Shown: in pieces, positions 7,368-52,823 of the stretch | Position numbering within the stretch: the stretch's first letter is position 1 | Layout: every line of letters begins with the position of its first letter | Source: a virus | Virus record (IMG/VR): IMGVR_UViG_3300047319_001564 | Location: 1 to 53,359 of that record | Length of the DNA stretch: 53,359 nucleotides | Strand: one strand, 5' to 3' | The notes under the pieces: model-generated | What the model was told of the DNA's origin: nothing | Databases searched by the model: none | Seen by the model: the letters and a program-made list of their open reading frames with translations, nothing else | Translations under genes and position numbers: made by a program

Positions 7368-7753
7368 CGAACTTTCTCCAATCGTCGCTTCTGTGCTGCG
7401 GTGCTCATGCCGTGGCGATCACCCGTTGGCGTGCGGCCGTGATATTTCGCGTCCGCCGCGTTTTCGAGCTTTGTGCCCCAAGCCAGATTTCTCGCTCGGT
7501 TATTCAATTTGTCGCCGTCCAGATGACGCGCCTCGCAATCTGGCGGCTTCGGACCGTGAAACGTCGTGGCGATCAGGACGTGCACGCACTTTCGTGTTCG
7601 TTTACCAGCGACAAAGAGACCGACCGTTTGATATTTGCCCGGCAGATGTGTCTGTGTGATTAGTCTTGGTGCGCCGTATTTCAGCGACCAGATTTGCCCG
7701 GAGTCATCAGCCTCGTAATCAGGAAAGCCAGGTATAGACCTTCGTTCACTCAT
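7364..7753 (-). CDS. HNH homing endonuclease with NUMOD4 domain
   Basis: This 129-residue protein opens with a NUMOD4-like segment (IPGFPDYEADDSGQIWSLK). It continues with an HNH core (VHVLIATTFHGPKPP, then RHLDGDKLNNRARNLAWGT and EN-ADAKYHGR), as in free-standing homing endonucleases of phages. It probably cuts unoccupied sites and spreads its own gene. It overlaps the ATPase gene upstream and the small coiled-coil gene downstream by a few bases, so it is tightly built into the early operon. Confidence 0.85.
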   Translation of the reverse strand: MSERRSIPGFPDYEADDSGQIWSLKYGAPRLITQTHLPGKYQTVGLFVAGKRTRKCVHVLIATTFHGPKPPDCEARHLDGDKLNNRARNLAWGTKLENAADAKYHGRTPTGDRHGMSTAAQKRRLEKVR

Positions 7754-9627
7754 GACAAGGCCTCGAAGAGATCGGCCAGGCGCACGCCACCCTTGCTCGG
7801 GTAGTCAATGACCCCGAGTGAGCGCAGTGACCCGACCGTGTTGTTGAAATGTCCGTTGACGGTGTACCGCGTCGCGGCCGCGAGCTCCTCGCGACTGATG
7901 TCCTGGCCGGCTGCGACGATCGCTTTGAAGATGCGCTGCTGCGGCTCGGTCCGGAGCACCGCGAGTACGCGCTCGATCAATTCGTCGCGGGTCGGTCCCT
8001 CTTCTGGAGCGTAGGCGGCCGCGGCGCCGGCGGTCGTCAGCCGGATGCCTCCGCTCGAGGGATAGTCGACCAGGTCCTTGCTGCGCAACGCGCCGACGGT
8101 GTTGTTGAAGTGACCGTTCACCGTGTAGCGCGCGACGAACGCGACTTGAATCCGCGTCGGTTCTTCCACGCCGGCGGATCGCCACCAGGCGAGCGCGTCG
8201 AGGATGCGCTGTTCGGCCTTGTTGAGATCTCCCGCCACACCCGGCCTGTCAGACACTCTCGGCGCTCGCGTTTCAGCCGGGCGCGTCGCGGCCGAGGATC
8301 GGCTAGTGGGAATGGCCCTCGTGCTGACAGGGTGGCGGCTGATGGCTTGCGCTGGCTGAACTGTGGCCAGCTTGTCGAGGATTTTCCTGATCCCGATGCG
8401 GTCGAACAACTGCTCGAGCATCCCGGCCTGCTCAAGCGAGACGGTCCGAATAGTTTGAAGATATTCAGCGATTGCCTTCTGTACGAGCCGATCGAGTCGG
8501 ACATCTGCTTGCTCGAGCACAAAAGCACTGCTCTTCATGCTCTCCGCGATCGCGCCGGTCCACTTCTCGAGCAGCGCACGATCGGCGTCGGTCAGAATCG
8601 GCTTCGACGAATTTGTCCCGGTCGGGACAATTTGTCCCGGCTTGGACAATTCCTTCTTAAGATCTGCGATCTGTTTCCGGAGCTCGCGCGGGTCGTCGGC
8701 CTTCGCCTTCTCGATCGTCGCGGCCATCTGCCCCTTGAGCGCGTTGAGATCGACGTCGGCGAGGTTCTTCGGTTCGACCGGCTTAACGCCTGGCGCCGGC
8801 GACGCGCCTGAATCGAAGGTCTCAATCGGCAGGACGTGCACACGCTTGAAAATGCCCTCGACGGTCGGCCAGCCAGGCGACCAGAACCACGCATCGCCGG
8901 TCGGGAGCGACGGCAGTGAATCCATCAACGTCCGGCCCTGCTCCTCATCACCGTGCACATCGATCCACGCCTTCATCGCCGCCAGATCCTGCGGCGCGAT
9001 GGTCCGGAGCACGATCAGGACCTGTGCCTGGGTCAGCACATTCTTGTTCAACACGGCCGACCGCTGGGTGACCAGCACGCAGCCGATCCCGCGCTGGCCG
9101 CCGCGGCGTACGATGTCCTCGGCGGCGCCGAGCATCCGCTCCTCGCCCTTCTGCGGTTTCTGCGGTGCGACGGCGTCGGCCTCATCGATCACCAGCATCA
9201 CCGGCGTGCGATAGACCTCCTTCGCTTTCAGCCGGTAGAGGTTCTCGAGGAAGGCCGTCATGAACGTGGCGACTTCGTGCTTGCGAAAGAGCGAGAGATC
9301 GAGCAGCACACTGACGCGTTCCTCGACGACCAGCTTCGCGACGATCTCGCCAGAGATCGATTCGAGCGGCACATCGCCGCGCTCACCGCCCAGAATCACA
9401 ATCGGCAGGCCTGGCGCTTTCCCGTCGGCTGCCGACCGTAATCCCCACTGATCGCCTTTCGGGTCGACGAGCACGACTTGTTGTCCGGCCTTGAAGAGCT
9501 GCTCGACCACGCGGCGCATCGTGTACGACTTGCCGGCGCGCCGTTTCGCGAGGATCGCGATCGTCTGCGTAACGGTCTCGAGCGGCAGTGAGAGATGGTC
9601 GGCGAGTTTCAGCGATCGAGGCGTCAT
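7750..9627 (-). CDS. HerA/FtsK-like DNA-pumping ATPase with two C-terminal winged-helix repeats
   Basis: This 625-residue protein has a Walker A (AKRRAGKSYT, near residue 30), a Walker B (VMLVIDEADAVAPQ, near 150) and a following QRGIGCVLVTQR segment, the pattern of HerA/VirB4-type hexameric ATPases. A charged linker and coiled coil span roughly residues 300-430. The last 140 residues hold two similar units, each with RYTVNGHFNNTVG followed by LVDYPS-GG or VIDYPSKGG, which look like paired winged helices. It probably translocates or remodels DNA during replication or recombination. It overlaps the methyltransferase gene upstream. Confidence 0.8.
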   Translation of the reverse strand: MTPRSLKLADHLSLPLETVTQTIAILAKRRAGKSYTMRRVVEQLFKAGQQVVLVDPKGDQWGLRSAADGKAPGLPIVILGGERGDVPLESISGEIVAKLVVEERVSVLLDLSLFRKHEVATFMTAFLENLYRLKAKEVYRTPVMLVIDEADAVAPQKPQKGEERMLGAAEDIVRRGGQRGIGCVLVTQRSAVLNKNVLTQAQVLIVLRTIAPQDLAAMKAWIDVHGDEEQGRTLMDSLPSLPTGDAWFWSPGWPTVEGIFKRVHVLPIETFDSGASPAPGVKPVEPKNLADVDLNALKGQMAATIEKAKADDPRELRKQIADLKKELSKPGQIVPTGTNSSKPILTDADRALLEKWTGAIAESMKSSAFVLEQADVRLDRLVQKAIAEYLQTIRTVSLEQAGMLEQLFDRIGIRKILDKLATVQPAQAISRHPVSTRAIPTSRSSAATRPAETRAPRVSDRPGVAGDLNKAEQRILDALAWWRSAGVEEPTRIQVAFVARYTVNGHFNNTVGALRSKDLVDYPSSGGIRLTTAGAAAAYAPEEGPTRDELIERVLAVLRTEPQQRIFKAIVAAGQDISREELAAATRYTVNGHFNNTVGSLRSLGVIDYPSKGGVRLADLFEALS

Positions 9628-31863: not shown

Positions 31864-32499
31864 TCAGTTTTTGAAGTGCAGCACTTGAGCCGCCTGTGGT
31901 TTCACGTAGTACGTCGAGTTCGCCGCGTCGAGCGTGATCTTCAGCGTGATGACGTTATCGCCGGTGAAATTCGTTGGCGTGCTGACACCGCAGATCGCCA
32001 TATCGCGCAGGAAGGGGTTGTTGATCGCATGCACATTCCCCACGGTGTCGGTGATGAAGTCATAGTCGCGATCGGCGATCCAGACGTCGCTGCCCACTCG
32101 CCGACAGAAGAACCGAAAAATCACCCGATACTCGGTCGCGTCGTTATTGAAGTTCGAGACCGTACCAGACGCGCCGGCCCCCTGTCGCAATTGGACCTGT
32201 GCGCCCGCGCCGACATTCACCTTGAACGTCACGAGACCGGTCGTGCCCTTATTGTTTTTCGCCAGACAGGCAATCTCGCACTTGACCACATCGCCATCGC
32301 TCCAGGCGCCGCCAGGGACGGTGAAGTGGCAGACGTCGGTTTCCGTGACCGTGTTGTTGACGTCCGCCTTCGTGGCGGTATAGCTCGCGAGTTTGGACCC
32401 GCCGAAGAGGAATAAGAGGTTGTCCCGCAGATGGGTGTTGAGCATCGATGCGGTGACGAACTCGCCAGGAATCCACGTGCGGGGACTGGTCCACGCCAT
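31864..32499 (-). CDS. Tail fibre or tail-tip protein
   Basis: This 211-residue protein opens with TSPRTWIPGEFVTASMLNTH and LRDNLLFLFGG, the start typical of many phage fibre and tail-tip proteins. The rest is beta-rich (VCHFTVPGGAWSDGDVVKC, VNVGAGAQVQLRQGAGASG) and ends in AAQVLHFKN. The start overlaps the stop of the methyltransferase gene (TGATG). Confidence 0.7.
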   Translation of the reverse strand: MAWTSPRTWIPGEFVTASMLNTHLRDNLLFLFGGSKLASYTATKADVNNTVTETDVCHFTVPGGAWSDGDVVKCEIACLAKNNKGTTGLVTFKVNVGAGAQVQLRQGAGASGTVSNFNNDATEYRVIFRFFCRRVGSDVWIADRDYDFITDTVGNVHAINNPFLRDMAICGVSTPTNFTGDNVITLKITLDAANSTYYVKPQAAQVLHFKN

Positions 32500-33620
32500 C
32501 AGCGTTCTCCATCGAGTCGCGCAAAGAGCGGCTCGTCATACGAGTACACGAACACCTGGCGCGCGTGATCATGGATGCGGGCGCGCAGGGTCGGGATTTC
32601 CTCAAAACGACGCAGTGAGACCACCGCCGTGTCCACCGTCGGCAGATTGGCCGATCGGAGATCGGCGACCACGATCGCGGGATGTTTGGCGGCTTTAATT
32701 GGGTCGATTTCGATCCCGCTGACCGGGCGCAGGAAGGTCGAGGCAATGCGCTGCATCAACAACCCATTGCCGGCGCCGAGGTCAAGGACGGGGCCTTGCG
32801 GCGGTGAGCTCCGCAACGCCTGCAACACCATCATGTGCGCCGCATCCTGCGCCGCCACGGTTGGGAATCCGTTCTCCGTGGACACCGGCATGCCAGCCTC
32901 GGAATAGGGGAAGGCGAGGCCTCGCGCTCCCTCGGCCGGATAGGTGCGCCCGCGGCGCTGCACGATTCGCCTCTCGGCGGTATAGCCGGTGCGGGTGACG
33001 ACTTTCAGGACCGGATACCGGATTTCAGCGGCGCCGTGGAGCGCCGACCATTCGACGGGCCACTGCAACACCTCATCAATCACATCCGCCGCCTGAGGAT
33101 CCTTTGCTCGGAGGAGCGCGCGATGGGCGACGCCAAGCGCGCGCGTCGCCTCGCACGTAAACGAGCAGGGCAGGTGCATCACCCAGCGCATATCCAGCCA
33201 GCGCCCGAGGATGTTGCATTCGAGCGGTCCCGTGGTCTCGATGCCGCCGCGTGACATCGCCCAGGTGGTGTCGCCCGTGCCAGCGCCCCAGGTGGCGGCG
33301 AACGCCAGTCGACAACACGCCGGAAAGCCCAATAGGGCGCCGACTCTCTCGTCGTCGCGCGCCTGGTACGCCGTCGAGAGTGCCTTGGCCCCTGGCCCGA
33401 CCGCGAACCGATCCGCATCGACCTCGAGATAGGCGTTTCCCCACGCCTCGACACGTGCGCGGCCGAATACCAGGGCAGCCGGCCGCAGGCCCTCCGTGAC
33501 GGTCTGTAGTTCGAGGTTATGCCATGCGGCAGCTGCGCGCATCAGGCGAGGTTCCCACGCGCCGCGCGCGCGCGAGGAGGCCCACATCCGGCGACTGAAT
33601 TCGCGGCTACGCGTCGCCAT
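32499..33620 (-). CDS. GFPACC-domain / SAM-dependent methyltransferase fusion
   Basis: I start at the ATG at 33620 (MATRSREFSRRMWASSRAR), which overlaps the radical SAM stop by 14 bases; a longer frame lies inside that gene. Of 373 residues, the N-terminal ~170 contain LLGFPACCRLAFAATWG, LECNILGRWLDMRW and HLPCSFTCEATRALGVAHRA, an ordered Cys pattern that resembles DUF483-like proteins. The C-terminal ~150 hold a class I methyltransferase (PVLDLGAGNGLLMQRIA, then GIEIDPIKAAK and IVVADLRSANLP). The fusion follows the radical SAM enzyme in one unit and may act on the same substrate. Confidence 0.7.
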   Translation of the reverse strand: MATRSREFSRRMWASSRARGAWEPRLMRAAAAWHNLELQTVTEGLRPAALVFGRARVEAWGNAYLEVDADRFAVGPGAKALSTAYQARDDERVGALLGFPACCRLAFAATWGAGTGDTTWAMSRGGIETTGPLECNILGRWLDMRWVMHLPCSFTCEATRALGVAHRALLRAKDPQAADVIDEVLQWPVEWSALHGAAEIRYPVLKVVTRTGYTAERRIVQRRGRTYPAEGARGLAFPYSEAGMPVSTENGFPTVAAQDAAHMMVLQALRSSPPQGPVLDLGAGNGLLMQRIASTFLRPVSGIEIDPIKAAKHPAIVVADLRSANLPTVDTAVVSLRRFEEIPTLRARIHDHARQVFVYSYDEPLFARLDGER

Positions 33621-34914
33621 GTGGAATATCCCCATGCATGACTGTCGTCCCCGCGTCGCCGTGCAGGTCGATCCCGGCGTCGCTGTGTTGATAGCCATCG
33701 GGCGCGTCCCAATGGTCGATATGGTCGCCCGTGGTGGTGCCAGGGATTGGACGCCCGTGCAGCACGGCGACGGCCTGCTCAATCGAGAGGTTGCGGCCCT
33801 CGCCCCAGGCCTCAAGCATCGTGACTTCGATGCGTTCGAGCTCGGGCGATCGCGTAATCGGGGTCAGGCCGCGCGCGAAGAGTTCCTGTTCGGTGCGCTC
33901 GAGGAGTCGCATCCAGACGCCGCAGTGCTCCGTCCGATTGCGCCAGTCGCCATCGACCGCCGTGCCCGGGCACTGTCCTTTGCAGGCAATGAAAAACCGG
34001 CAGCCCTGGCAGCCGTTCTCGGATTGCGGCGTGTCATAAAGCACCAGCTGCCGCTCGAAGCCCTCGACGTCGGCCTTGTTCCAATCCACGCCATCTTTGT
34101 TTGTGCGCCCGCAGTTGATGTTCTCGCCGACGCCGTTCACCCCGCGTACCGCGCGCGTGGTGTAGGGGTCGCAGGCATTCCAGATGCAGGTCGTGCCCTG
34201 GCTGGTATCGCGCGCGAGGAGCAGCCGTTCCAGGTCGGAGAAGACATCGAATTGCAGCGCTGGAAATCCCTGCTGAAAGGCATGGAGCTCCAGAAAGGCC
34301 GCGACGTTCTCGTCTTCGGTGAGCGCCCACCGGCGGCGCACCTCGGGCGATTCGACTTCTAAGAGGTGGAGCCGCATGTGGCGTACGCCCAGGGTATAGA
34401 GCTCCGCGATCCACTGTTTCAATCGGTCGAGGCGTGCGCCGACGGCGTTGCCGCGATGCAGGGTGACGATCAAACTCGGCGGCTGTCGGCGTTCACACAA
34501 GCGTCGAATCGCCCATTCGCTCTGCGCTGTCAGGGCCCGTGTTTTATCAAGCGTGCCCGCCTCGCGCACATCGTTCAGCTCGTCCGGTCCGTCCATTGAG
34601 ATCCCGACGCTGACGCCATAGCGCGCGAACAGCGCCAGGTGTTCTTCGGTGATAAGCGAGCCGTTTGTTTGAATGGCGTTGCCGCCGAAGCGTTCGAGGC
34701 CCCAGCGGAACATCTCTTCGAGATCCGCGAACGGCATCAAGAGCGGTTCACCGCCGAACAGGGAGAAGCGATAGTTCTCCTGCGCCAATGCGCGCTTCAT
34801 GGCCGCCATGTCGTACCCGGGCGAGAAGTTCCCCGCCTCGCGCATGGGGTCCTCGTAACAGTACGCACACTGCAGATTGCATTTCACACCGACCGGATTC
34901 AGTTCAATGCTCAA
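33607..34914 (-). CDS. Radical SAM/SPASM peptide-modifying enzyme with HxD tail
   Basis: This 435-residue protein has the radical SAM cluster motif CNLQCAYC (C12, C16, C19), FSLFGGEPLLMP and ISMDGPDEL. It also has a full SPASM domain: GENINC, CQGCRFFIACKGQC and EHCGVW fit C-x2-C-x5-C-x3-C plus the flanking cysteines. Such enzymes modify peptides or proteins such as sulfatases and RiPP precursors. The last 40 residues (starting TTGDHIDHWD and ending MHGDIPHGDA) carry six His-x-Asp units like those of the upstream protein. The start is TTG, overlapping the stop of the HxD hub gene (TTGA). Confidence 0.9.
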   Translation of the reverse strand: MSIELNPVGVKCNLQCAYCYEDPMREAGNFSPGYDMAAMKRALAQENYRFSLFGGEPLLMPFADLEEMFRWGLERFGGNAIQTNGSLITEEHLALFARYGVSVGISMDGPDELNDVREAGTLDKTRALTAQSEWAIRRLCERRQPPSLIVTLHRGNAVGARLDRLKQWIAELYTLGVRHMRLHLLEVESPEVRRRWALTEDENVAAFLELHAFQQGFPALQFDVFSDLERLLLARDTSQGTTCIWNACDPYTTRAVRGVNGVGENINCGRTNKDGVDWNKADVEGFERQLVLYDTPQSENGCQGCRFFIACKGQCPGTAVDGDWRNRTEHCGVWMRLLERTEQELFARGLTPITRSPELERIEVTMLEAWGEGRNLSIEQAVAVLHGRPIPGTTTGDHIDHWDAPDGYQHSDAGIDLHGDAGTTVMHGDIPHGDA

Positions 34915-37070
34915 TTGGCGTCTCCGTGTGCGGTGTCACTGTGCGTGACATCGCCGTGGGTATCGGTGTGGGAGACGTCCGAGTGCGCGACGTCGCCGTG
35001 GGCGCTGTCGGCGTGCGCCACGTCGCTATGGCTCGTCCCGTCGTTATGCGCAATGTCGACGTGCGCGACGTCTGCGTGGGAGACGTCGCTGTGGGGCGTA
35101 TCGGTATGTCCGTCCTCATGGGCCTCGTCGATATGCGCGCTGTCGCTATGCCCGTCGCCGTGGAGTTGATCGGTGTGGGTGTCGCTGTGGAGATCGGCAT
35201 GCCCGTCGCCGTGGTCCTGCACTAAGGGGACGTCCAAATGCGCATCGATATGGTCGGTGTGGACATCGGTGTGGGTGTCTGAATGATCGTCGATGTGCGC
35301 CGAATCCGAATGCGAATCTCCGTGCGGCGAGTCCTGAAAGACATCGTCCGAATGCGCATCGCCATGCGTGACATCAGTGTGCGAGACGTCGCTGTGGGCC
35401 GTGTCCTGATGGACCGAATCGCCGTGCACGGCCCCGTCGCCGTGCGCCTGGTCCTGGTGGGCATTATCGGTGTGGCTGTCACTATGGCTGACATCGCTGT
35501 GGGTGTCGGTGTGTGCCACATCGCCGTGCGCGACGTCGGTATGGCCGATGATCAACCCGAACCCGAGCCGCGTACTGATGTCGAGTTCGCTCCGACCGAC
35601 GACCTCGAGCTCCCAGAACTGACGACTATCGATCGGGACCGACAACGTGAACTCTGTTTCGATATGGGTGCGGTAAATCGTTTCGCGGATGTGATCGATG
35701 AAAAAGGATTTCGAAATGCCGGTGACCACATCCACGATGCCGATCCGGTCGCTGATTTCGCGGCCCAAGCTTCGCGTCAGTTCGGCGGTATTGGTTACGC
35801 CGACCATGCGGCGAAACCCCTCCACCTGTGTGGTCGGTTCGCTGCGGGTGAAAATAATGTACTGGGCCAGTTCAATGCCGAAATTCGCGTTCGACTGATA
35901 TGGCAGATCGATGTTCAGCGGGTTGAGGCCGAAGCGGTCGATGCTGTCCTGGTCGATCTGCGTGGCCGGAATCGGGCCGTAGTCCAGCAACGCCTGCCCG
36001 CGCTGTTGCAGGACCGTCAGCCAGCCGGCCGTCACGCCGCTGAGGGTCACCGAAAATTGCGTGGCGTTGCCTGAGAGCCCCACCGTGACGGTCAGATTGG
36101 CCGTGAGGTCGACGCCGCTCCCATCCTCGGCGGCATTCGCCACGTAATCGGTCCCAGCCACCAGCGAGACCAGCGACACGGCGCCGACGCGCACATCCGG
36201 GTTGTCCGCATCGGTCCACGGGCCGAGGATGTCGACGGATTGACCAATCGCCAGTTCTAACGGTTGGTTCAGGCTGAAGAGCACCGCGGTCGTGTTTGGA
36301 CTCGGGAGCCGCGGGTGCACCGTGGTCTGCGTCGAGTTCGCGATATTCTCGGCCGAATGCGGGGCGGTGAACCCATGGGTGTTCGTGAACGTGTCCGTGT
36401 TCGTGGTGAGCTTCGTGCGACGGGTGCGGGCTTCATAGACCACCGTGCCGTCCCCGCGTTCCCACACGCGATCCAGGCCGCTCAGGGCCAAGCGATACAG
36501 TTCATCGCGGGCGCGCGTCTGTTCGTCGCGGATCCGGTCGAGGACGTAGGGGTAGACGTCAGCGCTGAGATCTTTTTCGACGGCACGTGGCTGCGAGAAG
36601 TCCGGCAGGCCATCGATGATGGTCTGAAAGACGTCGTCCCCCGTCGCATCGAGCAGGATCGGCAGGTCGTTGAGCCGCGTGCGACCCGCAATCCCCATCC
36701 ACCCGATACACTCGCACCGTACGCCTTGCGCGCGATGAATGCCAGGTTCCGGGGCGATGTAGTCCAGGTATCCGGTAAATCGTGGATACGAGGTCGCGCC
36801 GACGGTTACGCGGGCGCGCACACCGATCAAGAGTTGAAACCCTGCACGACAGTTCGCGTGATCGGGCGAATAGTACCCGACCAGGTGCGCGCTATTGGTC
36901 GAGCTGTTATTCAGGATAAATGACAACGTGCCGGAATCGGCAATACAGTCGGCGACGCCACTGCCCGGAAGGCCCCGTTCCCATTGCAGACCCTCGGCGG
37001 TCCGCCAGTCGTTCACCTGGGTCCAGCCGTTGCCTCGCCCGGAGAATTCCATTTCCAAGAGAATCGCCAC
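34911..37070 (-). CDS. Tail hub/baseplate-like protein with C-terminal His-x-Asp array
   Basis: The gene starts with GTG (37070) after AAGGGAG, just past the tape measure stop. Of 719 residues, the first ~510 look like a tail-hub protein (LSFILNNSSTNSAHLVGYY, TSYPRFTGYLDYIAPEPG, DIRE-type helices and IDSRQFWELEVVGRS), matching its position after the tape measure gene. From about residue 510 to the end the sequence is an array of HxDxx or HxDx units, about 43 His-x-Asp in total, e.g. HSDVSHADVAHVDIAHND. The array could bind many metal ions or be the substrate of the radical SAM enzyme that follows. Confidence 0.8.
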   Translation of the reverse strand: MAILLEMEFSGRGNGWTQVNDWRTAEGLQWERGLPGSGVADCIADSGTLSFILNNSSTNSAHLVGYYSPDHANCRAGFQLLIGVRARVTVGATSYPRFTGYLDYIAPEPGIHRAQGVRCECIGWMGIAGRTRLNDLPILLDATGDDVFQTIIDGLPDFSQPRAVEKDLSADVYPYVLDRIRDEQTRARDELYRLALSGLDRVWERGDGTVVYEARTRRTKLTTNTDTFTNTHGFTAPHSAENIANSTQTTVHPRLPSPNTTAVLFSLNQPLELAIGQSVDILGPWTDADNPDVRVGAVSLVSLVAGTDYVANAAEDGSGVDLTANLTVTVGLSGNATQFSVTLSGVTAGWLTVLQQRGQALLDYGPIPATQIDQDSIDRFGLNPLNIDLPYQSNANFGIELAQYIIFTRSEPTTQVEGFRRMVGVTNTAELTRSLGREISDRIGIVDVVTGISKSFFIDHIRETIYRTHIETEFTLSVPIDSRQFWELEVVGRSELDISTRLGFGLIIGHTDVAHGDVAHTDTHSDVSHSDSHTDNAHQDQAHGDGAVHGDSVHQDTAHSDVSHTDVTHGDAHSDDVFQDSPHGDSHSDSAHIDDHSDTHTDVHTDHIDAHLDVPLVQDHGDGHADLHSDTHTDQLHGDGHSDSAHIDEAHEDGHTDTPHSDVSHADVAHVDIAHNDGTSHSDVAHADSAHGDVAHSDVSHTDTHGDVTHSDTAHGDAN
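34914..35543 (-). repeat. His-x-Asp coding array (about 43 units, mostly 12- or 15-bp period)
   Basis: The DNA encoding the hub protein's C-terminal ~210 residues consists of degenerate 12- and 15-base units, with codons varied enough that the DNA itself is not a simple perfect repeat. His and Asp are kept in phase while the other positions are Ser, Thr, Gly, Val or Ala. Conservation of the protein pattern over the DNA pattern suggests selection on the protein. Confidence 0.9.
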
Positions 37071-37074
37071 TCCC

Positions 37075-39768
37075 TTAGCCGTTCATGCCCACGAGGGCAT
37101 CGCGGATCGAGCGACTGATCGTGCGCGGCAAGCGCGCGATGGCGGCTGAGAGCGCAGCGATGTCGCCGCTCGAGGAGGACCCACCGCTGAATGACTGTCC
37201 TTCCCCGCTGAAGGCGAAGTCTTCATTGCCCCTCGAAAAGAACAACGTCGGGGACGTCACACGTCCACTCCCGCCACCGGCCATCGGCACGACCTCCATG
37301 TCGCCGGTATTGGGAAAATCGCGATACCTGCTATCGTTCGGATCGAATCCCGGCGGCGCATTCACCTGCCAATCCACCGTCCCGGTCACATGCGGATCGG
37401 GAATGTTGTCGATCGCGGTGCCGAGTCCGCGGGTGATGGCATCCGTCAGCTTTTGCACGGCATCGACAATCTTCTGGAAGCCCTGCGTCATCGTTTCAGA
37501 GAATGTCACACCGGCCGCTGAGAGATCGGTGATGCTGTTGCCGTTTTCATCCGTGAGCGTCCCCATCTCCACCATGCGTTGGAGCATGGGCGCCATCGCG
37601 GCTGGAATTTCGGTGCCGGTCCTTAAGGCATCATGGACGAAAGTGTTGATCGAATCCCCCATGCGACCGAGGACGGTATCCGTTGCGATGCCAGCACCCG
37701 TCAAGACCTTGAAATCCTGATAGAGGTCTTGTGCCTGCTTGTCGAGATTTTGCCGTTGCAGGGCCGGACCGAGTTCCTCGATCGTGAAGCCATATTTCTT
37801 CACGGTATCGTCGAGGGTCTTCATCGCCTGATCTTGGAACTGCAACGAGACATTCAATTCATCGATGGCTGCTTTGTAGGCTTCTGGCGTCTTGGCATCG
37901 AGCAGATGATCGAGCGTGACACCGGCTTCATGGGCGCGTTGATTGAGCGCCGCGAGGCCGCCGGCGGCATCCACGAAGGCCTGGCGAATCGGATTGACTT
38001 GTTTCTCAGGGTCGTTGAAGAGTTTTCCAAAGAGCCCGCCGACCAGCCCGCCGAGGGCGGTGCCGAGGCCAGGAATGACCGAGCCGATCGCACTGCCGAT
38101 CGTCGAGCCGAACACCTTACTCACGCCGGTCGAGAGCGCACGCCCGACCGTGCTGCCAGCACCGGACAGGAAGCCCCCAATCGCCGATCCTGCCGACTGG
38201 AGAATGTTTCCGCCGCCCTGAAACGCGCCGACGATGACCTGGCCGAGATCATTCTTGAGGAAATCTCCGAATGTTTGGAGCCCGGCACGCGCTTGGTCCA
38301 GCGTGGGGCCCACGAATTTGATCCGATCCTCAAAGTTCTTGAGTTCATCGTTCGTAATGGGGAGCACTTTGGTGCCGAGCTTGTCCAGGCCCTCCGTGAA
38401 GGCCTCGGACGGACCGAAGGCCTCATGCTGCACATCCCGCAAATGGGTGAACGATGCGACCAGATCGATGGTGTTCTGATTGGTCCGCTTCAACATCTCC
38501 ATTTGGTCCTTCATCATGTCGTCGAAGGACTTCTGGATGCTCTCGTAGATCTTGGTCTGACGGGTCGCCGTATCCTCATTCACCCGTTGTTGGAATTCAG
38601 CTAAGTCCGTGGTCGCCTTTTTCCGCGCCTCATCTTGCTTCGCGAGTACCTTGTTGATCCGTTCGTTTTCGGTCGCGATCTCGTCAGCGCTGCCGGTCGA
38701 TGTGGGGACCTTGAGTTGTTGCGGCAGTGTCAATGGCGATTTCACACCTGCGGTCATCTGCTTCAATTGTGTGTTGAGGTCTTCCATCTCTCGGCGGAGT
38801 TGTGAGGTGGCCTGCTGCGCTGGGGTAATACCGTCGGTGACATAGTGGGCGAACGCCACTGTCGCCTCTGCGGTGTAGCCTTTCGTCAGGCGCCACCACT
38901 TCCCTATCTCATCACCCGCTTTGTCCATGGCGCGAACCGTTTCGTCGCTCATGCCAACAGTGGCGCCCTTCAGATCATCGAAGCCACGTTTGAGGGTCGG
39001 CAGGACGGCGGCGCCCTGTTTGCCAAAGAGATCGATGGCGATGGCAACTTGCTTCGCTGGGTCCTGTACTTGGCGCAACGCATCGCTGATCGCAATGAAC
39101 TGATTTTCTGGATTGAGGTTCTTGATGTCCTCGAAGGGAATTTTCAGATCCTTCAGCGCTTGGAGAGCCTTGGCGTCGCCGCCGACTAACTTGTCCTCCA
39201 TTTTCGTGATCGCACCGGTCAGATCATCAATACTGTTGCCCGCCTCATCGCCAGCGATCTGGAACTTCTGCAAGCCCTGAAGGGAGACGCCGGTTTTATC
39301 ACTGAGCTTTACGAGTTCGTCTGCGTCCGCGAGTAACGCTTTGCCGAACTCCACGACTGCGCCGATACTGAATCCGATGCCGACGGCGGCCGCCAATTGC
39401 TTGCCGGTATCAACTAATTTGCCCATCGCGGCGTCGACCGGCTTTGCAGCCTCGGCGATCTTCTGGAGATTCTCCGGTACGCCGAGGCCCAGCGCTTTCA
39501 TTTTTGCCGCGGCTTCCTGCGCCTGTGCGCCGAGCCGTTGCAGTTCCTTCTCGGTGAGCGTGGAGACGCCGCCGACTTTATCGACGGCCTGCGCCATCAA
39601 CGTCGCATCCTGAATGAGCTTCGTGCCGTTCAGGCTATTGCCAATCCGCGTGAGGGACGGAATGACTTTGTCCGCGCCGCTCGTGAGATCCTTGAGCTTG
39701 ACCTCCGCTTTCTGGACGGCGTCCTGGAAGCTGGAGAAATCAGCCTGGAATTTTGCGGAAATTGGCAT
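37075..39768 (-). CDS. Tape measure protein
   Basis: This 897-residue protein has the coiled-coil N-terminus of tape measure proteins (FSSFQDAVQKAEVKLKDL, NLQKIAEAAKPVDAAMGKL), a long helical middle, and a hydrophobic Gly/Ala-rich segment (VIPGLGTALGGLVGGLFGKL, about residues 575-600). It sets tail length and passes into the host envelope during DNA delivery. Its length suggests a siphovirus tail. The ATG at 39768 overlaps the stop of the frameshifted chaperone (TAATG), the standard arrangement. Confidence 0.9.
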   Translation of the reverse strand: MPISAKFQADFSSFQDAVQKAEVKLKDLTSGADKVIPSLTRIGNSLNGTKLIQDATLMAQAVDKVGGVSTLTEKELQRLGAQAQEAAAKMKALGLGVPENLQKIAEAAKPVDAAMGKLVDTGKQLAAAVGIGFSIGAVVEFGKALLADADELVKLSDKTGVSLQGLQKFQIAGDEAGNSIDDLTGAITKMEDKLVGGDAKALQALKDLKIPFEDIKNLNPENQFIAISDALRQVQDPAKQVAIAIDLFGKQGAAVLPTLKRGFDDLKGATVGMSDETVRAMDKAGDEIGKWWRLTKGYTAEATVAFAHYVTDGITPAQQATSQLRREMEDLNTQLKQMTAGVKSPLTLPQQLKVPTSTGSADEIATENERINKVLAKQDEARKKATTDLAEFQQRVNEDTATRQTKIYESIQKSFDDMMKDQMEMLKRTNQNTIDLVASFTHLRDVQHEAFGPSEAFTEGLDKLGTKVLPITNDELKNFEDRIKFVGPTLDQARAGLQTFGDFLKNDLGQVIVGAFQGGGNILQSAGSAIGGFLSGAGSTVGRALSTGVSKVFGSTIGSAIGSVIPGLGTALGGLVGGLFGKLFNDPEKQVNPIRQAFVDAAGGLAALNQRAHEAGVTLDHLLDAKTPEAYKAAIDELNVSLQFQDQAMKTLDDTVKKYGFTIEELGPALQRQNLDKQAQDLYQDFKVLTGAGIATDTVLGRMGDSINTFVHDALRTGTEIPAAMAPMLQRMVEMGTLTDENGNSITDLSAAGVTFSETMTQGFQKIVDAVQKLTDAITRGLGTAIDNIPDPHVTGTVDWQVNAPPGFDPNDSRYRDFPNTGDMEVVPMAGGGSGRVTSPTLFFSRGNEDFAFSGEGQSFSGGSSSSGDIAALSAAIARLPRTISRSIRDALVGMNG

Positions 39769-50928: not shown

Positions 50929-51099
50929 TTAATGCACCTGCCTGCGCGTCACGCGCACCTGTTGGCCATTCGGCATCTTGACCAATTCAGATTCTCCTGG
51001 TTTGAGTGTGACGACCACCTGACCGAAGCCGCCGCGCGGGTCTGGGTACGGGATCGCGATGCTCGGCTCGTCGATCACAATCTCGCGCGGAGTATTCAT
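50929..51099 (-). CDS. Small protein between terminase and portal
   Basis: A 56-residue frame (MNTPREIVIDEPSIAIPYPD, then GFGQVVVTLKPGESELVKM, ending TRRQVH) starts with an ATGA overlap on the terminase stop and ends just before the portal start. The short, beta-like, basic-tailed protein is probably a head component or a packaging accessory. Function unknown. Confidence 0.65.
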   Translation of the reverse strand: MNTPREIVIDEPSIAIPYPDPRGGFGQVVVTLKPGESELVKMPNGQQVRVTRRQVH

Positions 51100-52823
51100 A
51101 GCCACTCCGCCATCACGCCAGAGGCCTGCGCCGGCATGCGCAACTGAAGGGCCGTCGCGATCGTGGGACCGATCACCGGATCAATCCGGCCACGGCTCTT
51201 CCCTTTCACGAACATCAAATTGTCTTTGCCGTCCCGCTGGCCCACGGTATTGGAGACCGACCATGCGGTCACCGGACAGCCACGCGCATCAATATCCCCG
51301 GCCAGAATGTCGGCCTGGACGCGCAGGCAAGCTGAGCTCATCCCCGCATACGTCTGCGGCACGGCGAGGACCTGTTCTTCAGTGAACCCATCCTCCTGGA
51401 CGAGTTCCTCGATCAGCTTGTCCGCATGCCAGGGGTCGAAACCGATCCGTTCGATGTCGTACTTCGTGCGCAGCTCCGCGAGCGTCTCGCGAATCACCCG
51501 ATGATCGAGCCGCACGCCCGGCGTCGTTTTCAGCCAGCCCTGCTGCGCCCAGATGTCATAGGGCGCCCGATCCCGATGCGCACGGTCCTTGAGGGTATCC
51601 GCCGGCGTCCAGATGAATTGCAACCAGCGCGTGTGTGGGCGGCCAGGCGCCGGCGGAAAGACCAGCGTGAGATCCATAAGGTCGATCTTCGAGGCGAGGT
51701 CGATGCCGACAAAGCAGGGTTCGTGCTCGAGCTCCGCCGGATCCCACGTCGACTGCCCATTCCGCCAGCCCTCGAGCGAAAGACAGGGCGCCGTCGAGTT
51801 GACCCAGAGATTGAGCCGCTTCTGTTTGAACTCCGCGGCCGCGCTCGGCATCTGCTTCGCTTTCGCGGCCAATTTCCGGACATCGTCGGGATTTACGGCG
51901 CCGCCCCAATGTGGATTGGCCTTCTGCCAGGTCGCCTCGGCCCACGGATCATCGGCCTCGTCGGCGTGCGCAATGAAGGCGAAGAATGCCAGTGTGGAGG
52001 CATCGTCCTCCAAGACCCCGTCGAGAATTTTGCAGGCGTAGTCGTGCTGATCGCCACACGGCGACACCGGATCATCGCCCGCCGTCGTGATCTGGAAATT
52101 CAGGAAGGTTTCGCGCGCGCCGGTCGCACTCTCCATCACGTCGATCAGGGCCCGCGTCTTCATCGCGTGGAATTCATCCGTGATGATGAGGCTGGGGTTT
52201 AGGCCATCCGTCGTATCGGAATCCGATCCCAGCGGCTCGAGCTTCTGCGCGGTTTTGTTCCGATGGAGATTATTGGCGTTGACCTCGATGCGCGAGAGCA
52301 GGCTCGGCGACGACAGCACCAGGCGCTTGCAGTCACCGAAGACGATCTTGGCCTGCTTTTCCTTGGTCGCGATGCAGTACCCTTCCGCGCCAGGCTCACC
52401 CTCGAAGAACGTCACGTACACCGCGACGATCGCCGCCTCAAACGATTTGCCATTCTTGCGGGGAATTTCGTTGTAGGCCGTCGTGAACCGTCGCAGACCG
52501 GTGTCGACGTGACGCCAGCCGAAGATCGATCCGAGCCGAAACACCTGGCAGGGCGTCGCGTCGAAGGGATGACCGGCCCAGCGCTTCCCCTTGTAATGCT
52601 TCGCTTGCTTCGCGAACTCTAGAAATCGCAGCGCGCAGGGCAGCAGTCTCTTCCCATTTCGCGCTTCCCACAGAAACCGGTACGGAAAGCCTGGCGTATT
52701 CTCCCGAGCTCGATCGCGGAGATGTCGGACGCAGGCCAGCCGATGGTATTTACCAGCCGGGATCTCGCCGGCGACGACCGACCGTGCGTAGTCGTCGACC
52801 GGGTTAGTTGATGGACGAATCAT
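51096..52823 (-). CDS. terL: Terminase large subunit
   Basis: This 575-residue protein has a Walker A-like IPRKNGKS in RFTTAYNEIPRKNGKSFEAA, a Walker B LIITDEFHAM, and C-terminal nuclease Asp residues in FVGIDLASKIDLMDLT, IGFDPWHADKLIEEL and GKSRGRIDPVIGP. This is the HK97/YonF-type packaging motor and nuclease. It overlaps the small subunit gene by 20 bases. Confidence 0.93.
   Translation of the reverse strand: MIRPSTNPVDDYARSVVAGEIPAGKYHRLACVRHLRDRARENTPGFPYRFLWEARNGKRLLPCALRFLEFAKQAKHYKGKRWAGHPFDATPCQVFRLGSIFGWRHVDTGLRRFTTAYNEIPRKNGKSFEAAIVAVYVTFFEGEPGAEGYCIATKEKQAKIVFGDCKRLVLSSPSLLSRIEVNANNLHRNKTAQKLEPLGSDSDTTDGLNPSLIITDEFHAMKTRALIDVMESATGARETFLNFQITTAGDDPVSPCGDQHDYACKILDGVLEDDASTLAFFAFIAHADEADDPWAEATWQKANPHWGGAVNPDDVRKLAAKAKQMPSAAAEFKQKRLNLWVNSTAPCLSLEGWRNGQSTWDPAELEHEPCFVGIDLASKIDLMDLTLVFPPAPGRPHTRWLQFIWTPADTLKDRAHRDRAPYDIWAQQGWLKTTPGVRLDHRVIRETLAELRTKYDIERIGFDPWHADKLIEELVQEDGFTEEQVLAVPQTYAGMSSACLRVQADILAGDIDARGCPVTAWSVSNTVGQRDGKDNLMFVKGKSRGRIDPVIGPTIATALQLRMPAQASGVMAEWL

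Follow-up and report, generated by a model that had tools for sequence, protein, structure and literature searches.

Why would a phage tail protein end in dozens of almost uninterrupted histidine-x-aspartate (HxD) units? The question is raised by a viral sequence of 53,359 nucleotides (nt), positions 1 to 53,359 of IMG/VR record IMGVR_UViG_3300047319_001564 (hereafter "the window", meaning the whole stretch analyzed). Its open reading frame (ORF) 34911..37070, on the minus strand, encodes a protein of 719 amino acids (aa) whose C-terminal 210 residues form an HxD array, and it is followed by genes for a radical S-adenosylmethionine (SAM) enzyme with a SPASM domain and for a DUF483-like protein. 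Taking all evidence together, the array is probably the substrate of this dedicated radical SAM peptide-modification cassette, with a cyclophane as the product.

A Constrained HxD Array on a Tail Hub

All 43 histidines of the array have Asp at position +2, and in 10,000 shuffles of its 210 residues the number of His-x-Asp pairs averaged 9.56 with a maximum of 20. The array runs from base 35543 to its last HxD base at 34920. Linkers between successive units are mostly two (n = 23) or one (n = 14) residues long, with rare lengths of three (n = 2) and zero, six and seven (n = 1 each), giving an irregular repeat period of 3–10 residues. The array lacks K, R, C, M, W, and Y, and His and Asp make up 43% of it (90/210). 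An earlier note on this DNA, made from the letters alone, had described about 43 such units at 34914-35543, on a tail protein, following an HxDxx or HxDx rule that suggested selection. These coordinates and the pairing are exact; the rule covers 37 of the 42 spacings and fails for the other five, and the codons do vary as claimed (His: CAC 27, CAT 16; Asp: GAC 28, GAT 15).

The His and Asp of the array are under purifying selection, which bears out the earlier proposal once synonymous and non-synonymous changes in relatives are compared. Between the arrays of L004 and L005 (L-numbers denote loci of our comparisons), 2/74 H and D sites changed, with 27 synonymous changes, against 49/122 sites in the middle residue (X2) and linkers (Fisher p 3e-10). 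Likewise, the arrays of the Thermus phages phiMa and Cumys differ at 0/106 H/D sites and at 14/142 other sites. The window and L004 arrays differ at 7/42 H and 5/41 D in an alignment that is less clean and has an indel-rich middle.

The AlphaFold2 (AF2) model of the array-bearing protein is confident over the first ~480 residues (predicted local distance difference test, pLDDT, mostly 75–94, with a few blocks of 60–75), and pLDDT over the array is ~30. Searches with VIA matched aa 1–488 to the phi812 hub (Z 22.4), Mu gp44 (19.4) and T4 gp27 (17.7), with a further hub match at Z 21.4, and Foldseek matched the model to contractile-injection hubs (E 1e-11). Because the folded part matches baseplate hubs and the gene follows that of the tape measure protein in a phage genome (the window also encodes terminase, portal, major capsid and integrase), the array is a C-terminal extension on the tail-tip baseplate hub, in line with the tail location given in the earlier note. 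Fusion to the hub is one of several arrangements: across 68 loci the carrier is a small protein whose N-terminal part is of the GSxWV type in 46, the hub in 4 and another protein in 10, with none called in 8. A PHROGs search gave no name for the GSxWV stalk domain.

Joint Occurrence of the Array and the Radical SAM Enzyme

To follow the enzyme, an alignment of 10 family members was used in a forward search, which yielded 69 viral and 77 genomic loci. Thirteen remote loci (tblastn E 7e-12 or weaker), chosen post hoc, were set aside as controls, leaving 133 family loci (64 viral, 69 genomic); the counts exclude both the window itself (L015) and a fragment almost identical to it (L006). Dense arrays were defined as at least 9 motifs per 60 aa, using the detection pattern [HFYW]x[DN]; a scan over all residue pairs in array ORFs also ranked HxD first. 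Such arrays are present in 56 of the 64 viral family loci, with one partial array at a contig edge and none in seven, six of which lie near contig ends. In 37 of these 56 loci, array and enzyme share a strand, and no more than 200 nt separate the end of the array from the enzyme downstream. None of the 13 remote radical SAM controls has a dense array.

The reverse scan was blind to enzymes. A search for DNA encoding four HxDxx units returned at least 120 viral stretches, which were divided into complex and simple arrays by criteria of complexity fixed independently of the enzymes. Counting among the matches listed, complex arrays made up 36/120 stretches (29 distinct), and the enzyme family was encoded in 34/36 complex-array records as opposed to 0/29 simple-repeat control records (Fisher p 2e-16, with relatedness of records left in), these controls being 30 stretches hand-picked from 84 rejected ones and some of the scanned records being the same contigs as in the forward search. 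Four other rejected stretches form a borderline set, with which the count becomes 36/40. The two complex arrays lacking the enzyme are on L232, a 10-kb fragment, and on L200, whose group's longer contig, L228, has it. A corresponding DNA pattern scan for FxN found no complex arrays in 120 stretches. Expansion of DNA-level repeats was considered as the origin of the array and rejected, given its low tandem-repeat score and the separation of complex arrays from simple repeats.

We also compared loci by the hub domain, using the best 80 of 111 hub relatives. Array and enzyme occur together in 13 and are both missing from 66; one locus has the array alone, on a contig that ends there, and none has the enzyme alone. 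The hubs of L427 and L429, 52% and 50% identical to that of the window, end where the window's array begins, and the counterpart of the window's next tail-module gene lies further on after them. Because hub loci carry array and enzyme jointly or neither, and because relatives' hubs stop at the array start, the array, enzyme, and DUF483 protein constitute a cassette that is gained and lost as a unit.

Motif Grammar of the Arrays

Pairing rules were derived from 111 non-redundant arrays (19,137 aa, 3350 His). The residue at His +2 is Asp or Asn in 97% of cases (D 2997, N 245), with Glu at only 10 (0.3%) and Ser at 9, and no other tested offset from His exceeds 45% D/N. Proline accounts for 0.1% of X2 residues versus 11.8% of linker residues. 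The first position is not restricted to His, since Phe, Tyr, and Trp have D/N at +2 in 46–49% of cases versus a background of 24%. For example, the arrays of L038, L041, L047, and L048 are mostly HxN, that of L007 is FxN, and L051, L062, L063, and L069 are rich in YxD/WxD; a mixed array in L152 (3-2111), and also that of L159, uses F, H, W, and Y as the first residue and D or N as the third.

Triceptide enzymes, as described in the available sections of one report (PMC11002830), link the C-beta of an Asn, Asp, Ser, Arg, or Ala residue to a Trp, Phe, Tyr, or His located two positions earlier; the pairs given there are Trp-Asn/Asp, Phe-Asn, Tyr-Asp, His-Arg and His-Ala. The array grammar matches this chemistry, which argues for cyclophanes and not for metal ligands. 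Acceptance of Asp and Asn and not Glu, of aromatic residues and not only His, and of almost no proline in between are the preferences that a bond from the ring to C-beta would be expected to impose.

The Radical SAM/SPASM Enzyme and Its DUF483-Like Partner

The window enzyme (Table 1) belongs to the radical SAM superfamily by its PF04055 match (50.1 bits, gathering cut-off 29.5), and its CxxxCxxC motif (C12/C16/C19) is invariant in 10/10 rows of our enzyme alignment A1. The auxiliary clusters of SPASM domains follow a cysteine spacing rule, and the full set that matches it (C248-x14-G263-x4-C268, C302xxC305x5C311x3C315 and C331) is likewise invariant in all 10 rows. The nearest curated models are those of sulfatase maturase and of the maturases of cyclophanes and other ribosomally synthesized and post-translationally modified peptides (RiPPs), namely AmcB, DynA, YhhB, PapB, and GrrM/OscB. 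The scores fall well short of the cut-offs of the cyclophane-maturase families (61/425 bits for AmcB, 55/445 for YhhB, 43/310 for GrrM/OscB). Among solved structures the nearest are anSME (2.7e-19) and then ChlB (3.7e-11).

In a tree of 131 enzymes with an arbitrary root, 65 bacterial-contig rows form one supported clade, and most viral rows lie outside it; the association of the family with phages is thus old and not a recent pickup. At least two H-x-[DN] motifs after residue 370 are found in 36/64 viral and 8/67 bacterial family enzymes. These units in the enzyme's own tail raise the question of whether they serve self-modification, as a product clamp or as a substrate mimic.

The partner protein is homologous, by hidden Markov model (HMM), to the Cumys protein annotated as DUF483; it scores 17.5 bits with PF04467 (gathering cut-off 25), hence "DUF483-like". 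Its gene may start at 33620 or 33635, in an ORF that opens at 33815. The AF2 model has a pLDDT of 91.5, and aa 244–372 match methyltransferases (Z 13.3), which filled the fold-search list, so that it gave no match over the DUF483 domain at aa 1–240. Four cysteines are nearly invariant in DUF483-like proteins. The partner is present in 125/133 enzyme-family loci and in 0/13 remote controls, a count made with an HMM whose iterative training used these same loci. The DUF483 proteins of Cumys (312 aa) and of a further Thermus phage, phiLo (344 aa), are without the methyltransferase domain.

Table 1. Features of the HxD locus and flanking tail module in the window.
Feature	Coordinates	Strand	Evidence
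HxD array: 43 H-x-D units, aa 510-719 of the hub protein	34914..35543	minus	ORF translation and motif count
Baseplate-hub (gp27/Mu gp44/VgrG-like) domain, aa 1-509, array carrier	35544..37070	minus	AF2 model, Foldseek, VIA
Radical SAM/SPASM enzyme, 435 aa, proposed array maturase	33607..34914	minus	Pfam PF04055 4.6e-13; 4-nt overlap with array gene
HxD-bearing C-terminal tail of the radical SAM enzyme, ~40 aa	33610..33729	minus	Sequence; 6 HxD in ORF
DUF483-like domain (PxCC, PCxxxC conserved) fused to class I methyltransferase	32499..33620	minus	HMM, AF2, fold search
Tail-module gene after the cassette; counterpart after the hub in relatives without the cassette	31864..32499	minus	ORF list, locus comparison
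Tape measure protein, encoded immediately before the hub	37075..39768	minus	PHROG tail length tape measure 3e-18

Elsewhere in the window, ORF 7750-9627 gave a second, weaker match to the terminase large subunit (PHROG 2.4e-19), in addition to the terminase at 51096-52823.

Thermus Phages and Bacterial Relatives

Three Thermus phages, phiMa, Cumys, and phiLo, have this enzyme too, with 51–53% identity to that of the window. Beside or near it, phiMa and Cumys encode HxD-array proteins of 53 and 54 units, and phiLo (L003, 15809-21144) has three adjacent large HxD proteins of 72, 101, and at least 47 units. In Cumys, the enzyme, the DUF483 protein, and an unknown protein have been described as an "rSAM module", with DNA modification as the suggested role; the same account notes cyanobacterial homologues next to genes for deazapurine DNA modification (Kolesnik et al., 2024; PMC11437467, available sections). 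The Thermus module and the window share the enzyme family, the DUF483 partner, and an adjoining array gene: the "unknown" third gene of the published Cumys/phiMa module encodes the HxD array protein. The available sections of the published account make no mention of HxD arrays (PMC11437467).

Of the genomic loci (n = 69), 29 contain arrays, a further 13 show 6–8 motifs per 60 aa (a class that is not convincing throughout, e.g., L094, L096, L137, L143), and 27 have none. In 19 of these 27 array-less bacterial loci, we found a short leader-type precursor that ends in H-[ILV]-D, for instance ...TIHIDIL in Bradyrhizobium and ...IIHIDL in Aquimarina; none of the 13 controls has one. The large bacterial array proteins had no Pfam family match. 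In L098 and L138, the bacterial homologues stand on proteins with twin-arginine translocation (Tat)-like or lipoprotein-like signals (motifs recognized by eye), which would be compatible with an outward-facing role.

Several bacterial loci have features of their own. A RiPP-like cluster of Bradyrhizobium (L121, 6648-13450) encodes a precursor ending in HIDIL, a YydG-like epimerase relative, and a B12-binding radical SAM protein, together with the HxD-type enzyme, a DUF483-methyltransferase, and an HExxH-containing protein (motif recognized by eye). In Acidobacteriota (L101, L104, L105, L106), two short HxD-rich peptides of 7–11 units directly precede a fused radical SAM-DUF483 ORF. In Pseudoalteromonas (L094, 8942-9238), a peptide encoded near the enzyme has HxD motifs on either side of a long Asp-Val/Ile-Asp run.

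Proposed Mechanism and Alternative Explanations

We propose that every Omega-x-[Asp/Asn] unit (Omega being mostly His) is a target of the radical SAM/SPASM enzyme, together with its near-constant DUF483(-methyltransferase) partner. Co-occurrence and motif grammar together make modification of the array by the enzyme very likely; if it occurs, a three-residue cyclophane is the likely product. The likeliest reaction would be abstraction of the C-beta hydrogen from Asp/Asn followed by formation of a C-C bond with the ring of the aromatic residue at position −2. One hub tail could then carry as many as 43 crosslinks, each with the loss of two hydrogens, more on one chain than in any triceptide known to us, and a virion would have three such tails if the hub is trimeric, as its relatives are. 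Once crosslinked, an otherwise disordered tail might become a stiff rod that resists proteases and, at the tail tip, touches the host; we put forward this role as rod or adhesin only tentatively. The idea of a stiffened tail tip in the earlier note is compatible with crosslinks, although its metal-based rationale is not (see below), and its account left out the radical SAM neighbour that we judge decisive.

Since close relatives have the same hub without the array, the array would be an accessory feature that probably serves contact with the host surface, and not a puncturing spike. A spike replacing the gp5/VgrG needle had been considered as a candidate and was weakened by the L427 and L429 hubs, which end at the array start. 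The earlier note had counted loss of the array in close relatives without consequences as a sign against its reading; relatives do lose it, but along with the enzymes.

Several observations speak against a cyclophane product or against a strict pairing of enzyme and motif. His-Asp is absent from the crosslink pairs in the available sections of PMC11002830. The window enzyme scores below every curated family cut-off, and its best models include sulfatase maturase, an enzyme of different chemistry. Phe, Tyr, and Trp precede D/N at +2 in only 46–49% of cases, and the FxN array of L007 matches the Pfam pentapeptide repeats (PF13576); the window's array protein, however, has no Pfam match, including none to a Pfam repeat family, and its period of 3–10 differs from a fixed five. 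The viral locus L017 has no array in 4.2 kb of upstream sequence, and 8/69 bacterial loci have neither an array, nor 6–8 motifs per 60 aa, nor a single-HxD precursor.

Among the alternatives, another reaction of the same enzyme on the HxD units is unlikely but has some footing: epimerisation, methylation or hydroxylation of C-beta or the ring, a crosslink through a ring nitrogen, or an Asp methyl ester or aspartimide made via the methyltransferase. The methyltransferase domain fused to DUF483 in the window and the epimerase relative and B12-binding protein of the Bradyrhizobium clusters would fit such reactions. The strict i/i+2 aromatic-Asp/Asn pairing, with proline nearly excluded in between, points instead to a side-chain bond; methylation does not appear to be a common step, given the Cumys and phiLo partners that lack the domain; and a ring-nitrogen bond is hard to reconcile with Phe replacing His. 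The earlier note had suggested an array that might carry many metal ions on the tail. His and Asp are good ligands and abundant here, and crosslinked units could still bind metal. Metal sites tolerate Glu as a ligand and do not accept aromatic substitutes, whereas the arrays nearly exclude Glu at +2, accept Asn, and replace His by F, Y, or W; moreover, the enzyme family tracks the motif. We thus consider metal binding a very improbable reason for the motif, which likewise separates the array from the metal-binding HxH motifs of tail spikes.

It is no more plausible that the array is an unmodified low-complexity or beta-helical linker that codon bias or repeat expansion maintains, with the enzyme as a passenger. 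AF2 assigns low confidence to the bare array, and HxD-encoding DNA repeats exist in viral contigs; yet H and D are conserved amid synonymous changes, and the enzyme accompanies complex arrays and not simple repeats. The regular beta-helix that the earlier note offered as a second option is at odds with the irregular spacing, the lack of a Pfam repeat family and the low pLDDT. Equally improbable, in our view, is an enzyme module that modifies DNA or another molecule, as suggested for Cumys, with the array unrelated or only a binding tail. The cyanobacterial deazapurine neighbours would favor this, but the third module gene of Cumys and phiMa is itself the array gene, bacterial loci have RiPP-like single-HxD precursors, and the closest NCBIfam models are largely those of peptide or protein maturases.

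Returning to the crosslinked array, we are cautiously inclined to generalize: in tailed phages of diverse metagenomes and hot springs, the cassette would build a poly-cyclophane of up to ~100 units on the virion tail, using an enzyme family shared with bacterial single-HxD precursors. Within the open-licence literature, we found no report of phage-tail HxD arrays or of their link to radical SAM enzymes. If the proposal is true, a phage structural protein is matured by a radical SAM peptide enzyme, and RiPP-type chemistry serves as structural material. DUF483 would gain a role, the Thermus "rSAM module" would be explained otherwise than published, and a substrate would be predicted for an enzyme family of 133 loci. 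For protein materials, the array could also provide a stiff polymer that is genetically encoded.

Comparison With Known Systems

The window's hub shares its predicted fold over aa 1–480 with gp27, Mu gp44, and VgrG hubs, but its C-terminus is the HxD array instead of a beta-helical spike. The His-Xaa-Ser system (HxsA-HxsB-HxsC-HxsD) likewise combines a His-x-polar motif with a radical SAM maturase (PMC9062424, available sections); here, however, Asp/Asn takes the place of Ser, and one radical SAM enzyme plus DUF483 that of HxsB/HxsC. The HxsB model scores 25–32 bits against a cut-off of 370 with the L091 and L063 enzymes and is absent from the best 25 models for the window enzyme, which places the cassette outside that system. 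The closest likeness is to the triceptides and their three-residue cyclophane-forming enzymes (3-CyFE; OscB, XncB, YxdB, HaaB, YhhB), in which a SPASM radical SAM enzyme is also encoded beside an aromatic-x-Asp/Asn substrate with exact i/i+2 spacing. The cassette has the same elements, namely the radical SAM and SPASM cysteines, an aromatic-x-Asp/Asn candidate substrate, and genetic linkage between the two. It differs in that the motif stands on a phage tail protein in dozens of units, that a DUF483 partner is nearly constant, and that the enzyme lies below the curated cut-offs. By these sequence features, the enzyme may work like the cyclophane maturases while standing outside their families.

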